IMG/VR virus record: IMGVR_UViG_3300049893_001031
Location: 1-21,946 of that record
Origin: a virus
Length of the DNA: 21,946 nucleotides
Direction: 5' to 3' (one strand)
Part shown: in pieces, positions 14,719-17,805 of the stretch
Layout of the letters: each line of letters opens with the position of its first letter
Position numbering within the stretch: the first letter of the stretch is position 1
Translations under genes and position numbers: made by a program
The notes under the pieces: generated by a model
What the model was told of the DNA's origin: nothing
What the model saw: only the letters and a program-made list of their open reading frames with translations
Databases searched by the model: none

Positions 14719-15057
14719 TTACCCTATTAAATCACGCCCATGTGTAGGGAATGTTTTACCAAAACCTTCATCGTACATCTTTTTACTATAAGGATTATTA
14801 CTTCTTCCTACTATGTCTTCCGAGACTACAGGAATAAGTTTTACCTCATAGATCAAACTAGGACTGAAAGCTGTAATTACTGGATCTTCAACTATAAAGG
14901 GTTTTTGTTCCTTAACAGAAGTAGTCCATTCTTCTGTTAATTTTTTCCAAACTTCAAAACACTTATCATAATTAGTAGAACTAGCTATTTCTAAATGTTG
15001 TCCGTCTGTTCTTAAAATAAGTACAGCGTATACTAAATTATTAGACTTCTGTGACAT
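14719..15057 (-). CDS. Small protein of unknown function between portal and scaffold
   Basis: The protein has 112 residues when started at the ATG 15057. The upstream ATG 15063 has AGG only 2 nt away, whereas AGGAAATGCGG places the second ATG about 8 nt after AGG, so the shorter start is preferred. The sequence is a compact alpha/beta pattern: LVYAVLILRTDGQHLEIAS, then a helix FEVWKKLTEEW, then FIVEDPVITAFSPSLIYEVKLIPV. I do not recognise the family. The overlap with the portal stop (15041-15057) implies coupled translation, and its position suggests a head-assembly role. Confidence 0.55.
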   Translation of the reverse strand: MSQKSNNLVYAVLILRTDGQHLEIASSTNYDKCFEVWKKLTEEWTTSVKEQKPFIVEDPVITAFSPSLIYEVKLIPVVSEDIVGRSNNPYSKKMYDEGFGKTFPTHGRDLIG

Positions 15058-15805
15058 CCGCATTTCCTTTGCCTAGTCGGTTTTTATTTCCTTTTGGAGC
15101 GCCTCTTTTTCCTTGTCCTTGAGGCTTTCCTTCCCCTTGTTTACCGGGCTGCTTTGCACTCTTTTGAGAATGTACAGCTCTATTATCTATTTTAGCTCCA
15201 GTAACAGAAGGTCCTTCATTAGAAGTTATACCGTTATAAACCATACCAGCAGTCTCATATTTTTTAGCTAACTCTAGCTGAAAGTCAGCTTCGTCTGCTA
15301 ATTTCTCTTTATTATCATCTCTTGTCTCTTTGATAGCTTTCTTTATTTCTGCTTCTGAGAGATAAGGATATAATTGTTTATATGCCTGCTTGTCCCCGGT
15401 CTGCCTAATCTTTTGCTCAATGATGATTGTTTCCATTTGAGTCTTAGGGTCTACCGGAAACTTTGGTTCAATATAAGTAATTTCTAATTTTGCATTTTCG
15501 GAGAACTTCTTTTCTCCTGATTTTGAATAATGAGCGTTCCATAGTTTTTTAATAACTTGGAATAGTTGTTGTTCTCGCTCTTTAATTAGCTGGCCTCTTC
15601 TACGGTTCCTGTCGATTACTCCAGCTTTTTCCATCCATAAAGCGAAACCTGAAGGAGACATTTTATCTCTATATTTAGGCATTAATCCATGGTTAACTCT
15701 AACCATGTCTGTAATACTTTCTATAGTTTTAAGTAATCCTGTAATATCTGCTTTTGGATGCTCGAACCTAAAATCGCCTCGTTCGCCTACGGCTACTGCG
15801 GTGTC
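15041..15805 (-). CDS. Portal protein, exon 2
   Basis: This is the 3' part of the portal gene after the intron. In frame with exon 1 it starts at DTAVAVGERGDF and continues through FEHPKADITGLLKTIESITDM, which is the usual portal region after 'LGP' that precedes the long C-terminal helices. The long helices run through EREQQLFQVIKKLWNA. The C-terminal 40 residues are low-complexity, rich in Gly, Lys, Gln and Pro. Exon 2 encodes 254 residues and ends at TAA 15043-15041. The reading frame stays open upstream to 15826 and beyond, but that stretch codes for the homing endonuclease C-terminus in another frame. The join at 15806/15805 is inferred because it restores frame with the exon-1 end, and is not proved. 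Confidence 0.75.
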   Translation of the reverse strand, partial: DTAVAVGERGDFRFEHPKADITGLLKTIESITDMVRVNHGLMPKYRDKMSPSGFALWMEKAGVIDRNRRRGQLIKEREQQLFQVIKKLWNAHYSKSGEKKFSENAKLEITYIEPKFPVDPKTQMETIIIEQKIRQTGDKQAYKQLYPYLSEAEIKKAIKETRDDNKEKLADEADFQLELAKKYETAGMVYNGITSNEGPSVTGAKIDNRAVHSQKSAKQPGKQGEGKPQGQGKRGAPKGNKNRLGKGNADVTEV

Positions 15806-16392
15806 CTTATTTTGTAGGTCATACAATTCGGAACATATTGTTTAATTAATTCAAACATTTTAAGTACTTCTTCTTTTCGTACTTCAATTCTAAAATTTGT
15901 TTTATATCGTGTTTTAAAACTGAGTATTCCAAAAGATTTTAGAATGTCTATTAATCTTTCTACTTCTTTTTCTGTAAAACTGTCGGTACAAAAACCGCAT
16001 CTAATGTACTTACCTGCTATTTGAACATACCCATCATCTAGATACCAATAAGCTAAAGTTTCAGCAGTGAAATAAGTCTCTAAATCTTTAGGTAGTATCT
16101 TTATGCTATCTTGATACCAGAGTTTTCTTAACTCTGTAAAAAAAGGCAGGGCTTTACTTTTAAATGTCCAAGCAAAGTGTTTCTTCTGTACTCCGTTATA
16201 AATTCGCACACTTCCGTCATAATACATTTTAGTCGTATAGTTGTGCATCTTTTTATAACACTGTTCTACATACTCTTTATGGTCTTCTTTTTGTTTGATT
16301 TTTAGTCTACTATTAAATGAGGCTTTAGCTGGTTTTTCTAAATGCCCATCGCCAAGAAGTTTTCCATAAATAAAAGCTTTTAAATGTTCCAT
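15793..16392 (-). CDS. LAGLIDADG homing endonuclease inside the portal intron
   Basis: This 199-residue protein has two LAGLIDADG-type motifs: AFIYGKLLGDG at 6-16 (with acidic D15) and LAYWYLDDGY at 113-122 (with D119 and D120), so it is a single chain with both halves. The C-terminus YVPNCMTYKI is the usual end of this family ('P.M.YK'). The enzyme would make a double-strand break at the intron-free portal gene and so spread the intron. A Shine-Dalgarno AAAGGTGA is placed 8 nt before the ATG and lies within the probable P9 hairpin of the intron, which could limit translation until folding changes. The stop codon at 15795-15793 lies in portal exon 2, so the frame crosses the 3' splice site. 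Confidence 0.85.
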   Translation of the reverse strand: MEHLKAFIYGKLLGDGHLEKPAKASFNSRLKIKQKEDHKEYVEQCYKKMHNYTTKMYYDGSVRIYNGVQKKHFAWTFKSKALPFFTELRKLWYQDSIKILPKDLETYFTAETLAYWYLDDGYVQIAGKYIRCGFCTDSFTEKEVERLIDILKSFGILSFKTRYKTNFRIEVRKEEVLKMFELIKQYVPNCMTYKIRTPQ

Positions 16393-16641
16393 ATTAAATT
16401 CACCTTTCGGATCGTGGACTTTACCTTGTTCTTATTAAAGAACCGTATTTTGAAGTCTCTGAGGGCTACTCTTTTACCAAGTCATCCCTGCTGATTGTCC
16501 AATCTTTTCTATTTTCACTTTTACGTTTAATCTTTCGATTTCCGTTTAGTAAGAAAAGCTCTAAGGAGTTTCCAGCATATTCATACGTTTATTATTTTTG
16601 CTACATTTCTGTAGCCGGACCCAATTCCGCAGTTTTGGTCT
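15806..16641 (-). ncRNA. Group I self-splicing intron in the portal gene
   Basis: The core elements are all recognisable on the minus strand: P ATGCTGGAAACTCC (16578-16565), Q AATCAGCAGG (16496-16487), R CCTCAGAGACT (16464-16454) and S TAAAGTCC (16423-16416). GCTG of P pairs with CAGC of Q (P4), and GACU of R pairs with AGUC of S (P7). P6 (AGGG/CCCU) and P8 (GTTCTT-TAAT-AAGAAC, 16443-16428) also form, and P2 is GCTACA-GAAA-TGTAGC (16615-16600). The 5' splice site is set by P1: exon GGACCT (16647-16642) pairs with internal guide GGGTCC (16622-16617), giving the required U.G at the splice site. The sequence resembles subgroup IA introns. The 3' end is less certain: 15806 restores the portal frame, while 15829 gives a 4-bp P10 but a frameshift. 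Confidence 0.9.
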
Positions 16642-17805
16642 AGGTCCCAGAGAAAAGCCTAAGGCATTTGACATAGCGTTACCGTCAGGAAATACGCCAA
16701 ATCCAGCGTCATGGCTTCTAAAAGCTCCACCGGCTCCTAAGCCGCTTACTCCTGTTAACCCTCCAAATCTACTTTGGGCTGAACCGCCTCTTAGTTGATT
16801 AAAGTCGTCTACAGGTCTACCTTGTCGGGTATTTGTAGGTCTTTCTACGCCTGTTAGTACAGGAACTCCGAAAGACTGGAACTTTGCTATGTGATTTAGA
16901 TCTGTAAGTCTCATATTTACGGCGTGGTTTGCATAAATAAGAGGTTCATTTATCGGTAAGAAATAGTAATGAGCAGGATCAGAGTTAAAAAACGGCACTG
17001 CCGGTATTATTCCATAGGGGTTTTCTGATTCCATCTCAAGACCATTTTCGTCTATTGATTTATGACTTGTTGGACTCCAATAAATTTTGTTGAGTTTTCC
17101 AAAAGTCTTTGCTTTAGATGGAGGCGCTCTTTCTTGTCTGCCAAAACTAGAAGGGTTCATAGGATTACTACTAACATTCATAAAGTTTGCCGGGCCGTTA
17201 GCAGCTGTTGTAGGACTTCCGTTAAATCCGCCAAACTTACTATTATTGAATCCACCTATTAGTAACTCTGTGACGTAGTAAGGGCTTGCACTATGCCTAA
17301 CATCGTATATGCCGCCGTGCATCAAGTCTAACTGGACCTTACCGCCTTCATTCTTATCTACTACAGTACCAGTGCTTTCGTCTATAAATGATACTTTTAC
17401 GAGCACTGTTCCTAATAAGCCTAACCATCTATCTAACTTATCCATCAACATTAAGTATCTACTGTGGTTCATTATTTCTTCCCACAGTTTTTCGTCTTTT
17501 GCTAAAGCTTTTCCTGTCTCAGAATCTACTACTTTGTATATAGGTGTCTCTTTATATAATATAGAAGAATCGTCTACAATTTCTTTAGTAAGATTCAATG
17601 GAAGGATCTGCTGGCGTTCTGGATTTCTAAACTCTCTAGCTAAATCTAACCACACAAATTCATCGGACCTACCTTCATAAAAGGCTAGAGCTATTTCACT
17701 TATCCATTGTCGATAAAAAATATCAGCGTATAGATAAAGTCCTACAGAAGCAAGACCTCCTAAACGTCCTGCGGCATTATGGCCGACTCCAAGATTAAAA
17801 GAAAT
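16642..17805 (-). CDS. Portal protein, exon 1
   Basis: The portal protein makes the dodecameric DNA entry ring at one head vertex and anchors terminase and the tail. Conserved-looking elements are FYRQWISEIALAFYEG near the N-terminus, EFVWLDLAREF, then NPERQQILPLNLTKEIVDD, and LGFSLGP at the intron junction. A Gly/Asn-rich insert (about residues 170-220) separates the two halves. The frame is open from 17814, just after TAG 17817-17815, but contains no ATG, GTG or TTG before GTG 17655. Starting at that GTG would drop the FYRQW block. An ATT at 17805, preceded by an AAGGTAGGG ribosome-binding-like sequence, is the best candidate and is used here; a sequencing or assembly change is the alternative. 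Together the two exons encode about 642 residues. Confidence 0.75.

Follow-up and report, generated by a model that had tools for sequence, protein, structure and literature searches.

A group I intron with a LAGLIDADG endonuclease ORF, probably mobile, in the portal gene of an uncultured phage

Results

A portal gene in two frames

The DNA analyzed is a 21,946-base record of an uncultured phage, and 'the window' denotes this full stretch. On its minus strand a gene for the portal, the ring through which DNA enters the phage head, is split into two frames (17805-16642 and 15805-15041), and the 836 nt between them hold an ORF of 199 residues:

16642..17805, minus strand: portal exon 1, 388 codons (ISFNLG...LGFSLGP), identified by homology to 67 relatives, phrog_104 and the Foldseek portal hits of the relatives' model
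15806..16641, minus strand: group I intron, 836 nt, beginning after U and ending in G, identified by covariance model R1 and the exact in-frame junction in comparison with relatives
15793..16392, minus strand: LAGLIDADG_2 homing endonuclease ORF, 199 aa, identified by PF03161, phrog_11023 and I-SceI
15041..15805, minus strand: portal exon 2, 254 codons (DTAVAVGERGD...), identified by homology to relatives

The length given for the interruption in a preliminary description, 836 nt with the endonuclease ORF included, is correct. Its assignment of the gene as a phage portal is supported by both sequence family and fold: 21 of 26 uninterrupted relatives matched phrog_104 (best E 4e-9), and in a Foldseek search with a model of L023 with 25 relatives, which was of modest confidence (pLDDT 57.5), solved portals ranked first (best E 1.8e-9). 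When the exons are joined, the frame is restored and a single protein of 642 residues results, with U before the intron and G at the intron end. No stop interrupts either exon or the endonuclease ORF, and exon 1 probably starts with AUU at 17805.

Besides window position 17805, AUU portal starts were apparent at L002:3776, L005:3795, L023:2127 and L026:4861, other contigs having ATG, GTG or TTG at the same place, and some AUU starts directly follow a strong ribosome-binding site (L005, AAAGGAGGTGTACC-ATT). A connection of AUU starts with introns was rejected, since the portal genes of L023 and L026 start with AUU yet contain no intron.

The insertion site is empty in relatives

Six close relatives were obtained first, and searches with alignments brought the set to 67 distinct contigs in all. 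Exon 1 alone gave no match when close relatives were searched for, and portal relatives were found neither among annotated phages nor in the genome collection. All 67 contigs are uninterrupted at the insertion site (GP|D), which lies in LGxSxGPDxxxAVGE or a near variant of it; this agrees with the junction after the proline of LGP that had been proposed. Homologues reading straight through this region had also been named as grounds against an intron. They do exist; they present the empty site that is expected of an insertion and do not refute one, because the portal frame of the window reaches a stop 27 codons into the intron.

No other contig carrying the window intron at the portal GP|D site was found among the 67 relatives, and a search for the same intron elsewhere with the exact core pattern returned nine contigs, none with this portal. 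The description of the target as nearly fixed holds for the protein, where GPD is invariant, but not for the DNA: all six bases pairable with the window guide are kept in 9 of 45 distinct relatives, and T precedes the cut position in 22 of the 45. The insertion region is conserved about like the top fifth of the portal gene.

Splice sites and ribozyme core

The elements of the intron RNA were placed as follows, all on the minus strand:

16642..16647: exon strand of P1, GGACCU, with the 5' splice site after its U (sequence, scored)
16617..16622: P1 guide GGGUCC, the internal guide sequence (sequence)
16600..16615: P2 hairpin GCUACA-GAAA-UGUAGC with GAAA loop, 16615-16610/16605-16600, predicted in every fold
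16417..16590: ribozyme core P3-P8 (P, Q, R, S), from the R1 match and the P4-P7 covariation over 22 introns
16587-16583/16448-16444: P3
16577-16573/16493-16489: P4
16567-16565/16500-16498, plus 16558-16552/16510-16504: P5
16488-16486/16465-16463: P6
16417..16457: P7, GACUU (16457-16453) with AAGUC (16421-16417), enclosing P3' (16448-16444) and P8, from sequence and a compensatory change
16428..16443: P8, 16443-16438/16433-16428
16401..16416: P9, CAC/GUG, 16416-16414/16403-16401, from sequence; weak alone, with a similar layout in L002 and L005

P1 comprises six contiguous pairs, GGACCU (16647-16642) with GGGUCC (16622-16617), and has U.G at the cut, exactly as first described. For this 5' guide the shuffle p was 0.14 over the whole intron and 0.005 if only the first 60 nt were shuffled. 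The terminal intron base (15806) is G on the minus strand, and this boundary is fixed by the relatives. P10, on which the preliminary description is silent, is weak in the window, with only 2 contiguous pairs; the element is not universal in group I introns. A guide at the 3' end was sought in the window intron and not found; the best guide is the 5' one.

In the core, the P, Q, R and S elements of a group I intron stand in order and P4, P6, P7 and P8 pair as expected, so that the preliminary description is borne out on these points as well. Covariance model R1, which consists of the cores of 11 other phage introns and excludes the window, matched at 16590-16417 with 100.4 bits (E 2.1e-22) as its sole match in the 21,946 bases, and it gave no match up to E 10 in the intron-free relatives L004, L006 and L007. 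A chance origin of the core match is excluded by this score, reached at a single place with a model built without the window. Across 22 aligned cores, P4, P5, the P5 extension, P6 and P7 were paired in 95.7% of cells, compensatory changes were seen at 13 of 21 pairs, and covariation was 0.416 compared with 0.144 in shuffled and at most 0.093 in slid controls, the fitting of the alignment to the tested structure favouring that structure somewhat. The last P7 pair is U-A in the window and mostly A-U elsewhere (GACUA/UAGUC in other introns), a compensatory change. Energy minimisation of the core alone recovered P2, P3, P4, P5, P6 and P8, and the core with flanking exon folded 2.6 SD below shuffles.

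The lack of a covariance-model match had been put forward as a sign against the intron, and here the outcome was divided: RF00028 was not matched in an Rfam search of the window at the gathering threshold or at E 5, whereas the closer model R1 matched strongly, and RF00028 missed homologous cores in other phages, too. The single Rfam match in these searches, a snoRNA, was judged to be due to chance. By blastn, the first 249 nt of the intron find matches in isolated phages, in gaps that interrupt or adjoin genes for RNR, capsid, lysin, polymerase and tail proteins; the phage regions fetched include many RF00028 introns and several others with homologous cores below the Rfam threshold. At gathering score, RF00028 misses window 16590-16417 and the cores in L011, L012, L019, L020, L021 and L022. 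Counts of phage introns based on RF00028 are probably too low.

P7.1/P7.2, typical of group IA, are absent from the window. The intron was not filed under group IA, although its P3-P6 resemble IA-like phage introns that have these elements, because only four bases (CAAA) separate P7 and P3'.

The intron-encoded endonuclease

PF03161 matches residues 6-178 of the 199-residue ORF (E 1.8e-33), phrog_11023 matches it with E 6.6e-19, and its nearest solved structure is I-SceI (E 1.8e-7). Both LAGLIDADG motifs are present (LLGDG and YLDDG), and identity to phage relatives of the endonuclease is 22-30%. A single-sequence fold was unusable (pLDDT 40). The ribosome-binding site of the ORF, GAAAGG, sits in the P9 loop. 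Full endonuclease would be made only from unspliced RNA, because its last 13 nt, stop included, fall in exon 2; production of the enzyme would in this way be coupled to splicing.

Other introns in the phage family

Portal introns were found after residue 45 in L028, L069 and L073 and near residue 62-64 in L002, L005, L082, L084, L085 and L087. These portal introns scored 49-179 bits with R1, and those of L002, L005 and L028 contain LAGLIDADG ORFs (26-31% identity).

Further interruptions were noted outside the portal gene. Major capsid genes are split in L002 (8104-9009), L087, L092 and L099, the L092 insert being only about 320 nt long; by eye, the L002 capsid intron follows GAATGGT and has the guide GCCAUUC and the P10 UCAAA/UUUGA. 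In L028:287-1522 the terminase large subunit is interrupted by about 1.2 kb near the Walker A motif (CGRRFGK), with no LAGLIDADG match, by either an intron or an intein.

For the residue-64 introns, a search for guides close to the 5' end gave none. Guides were located downstream of core and endonuclease, close to the 3' end, in L002:3962-4991, L087:4028-5000, L005:4019-5024 and L085:4010-4999; the boundaries of these introns were set so as to suit both the protein and the guide, a choice in favour of the guide. In L002 and L087 the guide stands 32-33 nt from the 3' end and forms 16 contiguous pairs with the ligated junction (p < 0.001); the pairings, GUUGUUUUUU.GGGAUU and GUUGUUUUUU.GGGGUU, show a compensatory change. 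The L005 guide has 11 pairs at 39 nt from the 3' end (p 0.011) and that of L085 has 10 pairs at 53 nt (p 0.023), while the same test gave no clear guide in L084, nor in L082 with the boundaries used. Behind most 3'-end guides stands a hairpin, usually with a GNRA (GAAA-type) loop like that of the window P2.

By eye, the starts of residue-64 introns pair with exon 10-20 nt upstream of the splice site (L002:3940-4000, L005:3980-4050, L082:520-570, L087:4000-4060), for example GUACGUCA/UGACGUAC in L002 and GUUCGUCAAU/AUUGACGAAC in L005, which places the splice site in a hairpin loop. The two strands appear to change together between phages, likewise by eye.

Short inserts with guides in related portal genes

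Three phages (L005, L087 and L082/L083) have short portal inserts of 35-57 nt, which begin after U and end in G:

L005:3899-3934: core-less insert, 36 nt, in codon 35
L087:3942-3976: core-less insert, 35 nt, after residue 45
L082:393-435 and 449-505: core-less inserts, 43 and 57 nt, also present in L083, a second assembly

None of the inserts in L005, L087 and L082 contains a ribozyme core. Their guides form a P1 of 6-7 pairs with exon 1, with U.G at the cut, and a P10 of 3-6 pairs with exon 2 (shuffle p for the four guides 0.00015, 0.0047, 0.0075 and 0.00025), and in some a GNRA-capped P2 hairpin follows the guide. In L005, L087 and L082 alike, a full intron near residue 64 is present as well.

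The exact empty sites are seen in L053, an insert-free relative roughly 90% identical to L087. Exon 2 of the two differs by 140 synonymous and 24 replacement codons; judged by these codon differences the L087 portal is under selection, and because of this its insert must be removed or bypassed. When the intron-free L053:5001-6938 was compared with L087:3807-6760, which has both the 35-nt insert and the full intron, the 61 nt between the two sites were only 74% identical in DNA, which would fit co-conversion during homing.

Some of the portal frames are irregular. An extra A in exon 2 (ATTCTG-A-CCC) breaks the frame in the divergent L002 (about 5010) and L078 (about 988) alike, and L082 has a 2-nt excess (CTTAGAGTAAG), a frame error; the portal genes of L082, L002 and L078 may be broken.

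The short inserts are candidate core-less group I introns, which would be served by a core elsewhere. We give an even chance to the reading that detached-guide group I splicing occurs naturally in the portal genes of this phage family, with one core splicing several P1-P2 modules per transcript. If that is true, the window intron would be an ordinary, guide-first relative of the detached-guide introns.

Discussion

The portal gene of the window very probably carries a mobile group I intron, for which splicing and homing are predicted; most likely the intron would splice itself and home. Going by its family, the core would fold in the late transcript, a guanosine bound in P7 would cut after GGACCU, and the freed exon would attack after the terminal G at 15806. 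The joined mRNA would then encode the 642-residue portal, with GGGACCU-GACACCGCA as the predicted ligated product. Unspliced RNA would yield a truncated portal ending 27 codons into the intron and would be the sole template for the endonuclease, which starts behind P9 and has its stop in exon 2. This enzyme, in turn, would most likely cut portal alleles that lack the intron, at the conserved GPD codons, and repair would copy the intron in (homing). A helper for the splicing of the window intron is possible, because phage introns that splice during infection yet not in vitro have been reported (PMC11878797).

It is unlikely that the intron is real but decayed, splicing inefficiently without help and leaving the portal poorly expressed or the phage defective. 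Such a state would suit the missing Rfam match, the compact 3' half without P7.1/P7.2 and the weakness of P10 and P9, but both splice sites, all core helices and the compensatory change in P7 have been retained, and both exons and the endonuclease ORF have stayed open. Even a need for a helper would not imply decay, given the infection-only splicing of phage introns (PMC11878797). Considerably less probable still is a locus that does not splice at all, where the portal is translated as two separate fragments on either side of a free-standing endonuclease gene. Against it stand the one uninterrupted protein found at this site in the 67 relatives' contigs, the significant group I core within the non-coding 249 nt and exon boundaries that fit the U and G rules exactly, even though each exon has an open frame to itself and the second fragment could start at a TTG. 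We give hardly any credence to an intein, a group II intron or an assembly artefact, despite the window intron being known from a single contig: an intein is contradicted by the stop 27 codons in and by an ORF that is not continuous with the portal frame, core and endonuclease type are those of group I, and other portal introns of the same family occur in independent assemblies.

The group I intron is new and its site, too, is new, occupied in no relative found, though in kind the intron is ordinary; what is unusual for an element of this well-known type is its host gene, the portal. Phage introns are reported mainly in genes of nucleotide and DNA metabolism, and it has been asked why (PMC11878797). 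Head genes appear as recurrent intron targets as well, because the family has introns at no fewer than three places in the portal and split capsid genes in addition. As the window further shows, RF00028 can fail to detect a strong phage group I core. If the guide-only inserts are confirmed, one ribozyme would serve several introns and offer a model of how self-splicing introns could come to depend on a shared machine; we know of no earlier natural group I system of this kind.

Comparison with known systems

With phage introns of the SPO1, Twort and T4 type (RF00028), such as those in the RNR small subunit of Acinetobacter phage Herod and Pseudomonas phage KIL1 and in Staphylococcus phage lysin genes, the window intron shares the core helices, the U.G and terminal G rules and the endonuclease inside, and P3-P6 are up to about 80% identical over 95 nt. 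It differs from them in residing in a portal gene, in lacking P7.1/P7.2 and in being unmatched by RF00028. In mycobacteriophage LittleE (PMC3706429), a capsid-gene intron has a LAGLIDADG-like ORF on the opposite strand and a core whose class is not settled. Like the window, LittleE has a split head gene, an exon 1 ending in U, an intron ending in G and a LAGLIDADG-like ORF; the gene is a different one, however, and the LittleE ORF lies on the opposite strand. The endonuclease resembles I-SceI, LAGLIDADG_2 (PF03161) and phrog_11023 in sequence family, in its two motifs and in being intron-borne, whereas its stop lies in the downstream exon and its identity to phage relatives is 22-30%.

Portal introns of the relatives, at two other sites, have the same gene and the same core family in common with the window intron and differ in their sites and, in L002, L005, L085 and L087, in guides at the 3' end. 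At the level of titles and abstracts, a non-exhaustive literature search found no natural group I case of permuted or detached-guide order; what it did find were group II introns that are naturally permuted (PMC8637638) and group I 'spliceozymes' made by engineering (PMC4509937). The detached-guide reading of the related portal genes, if it holds, would be the natural counterpart of the engineered group I spliceozyme.
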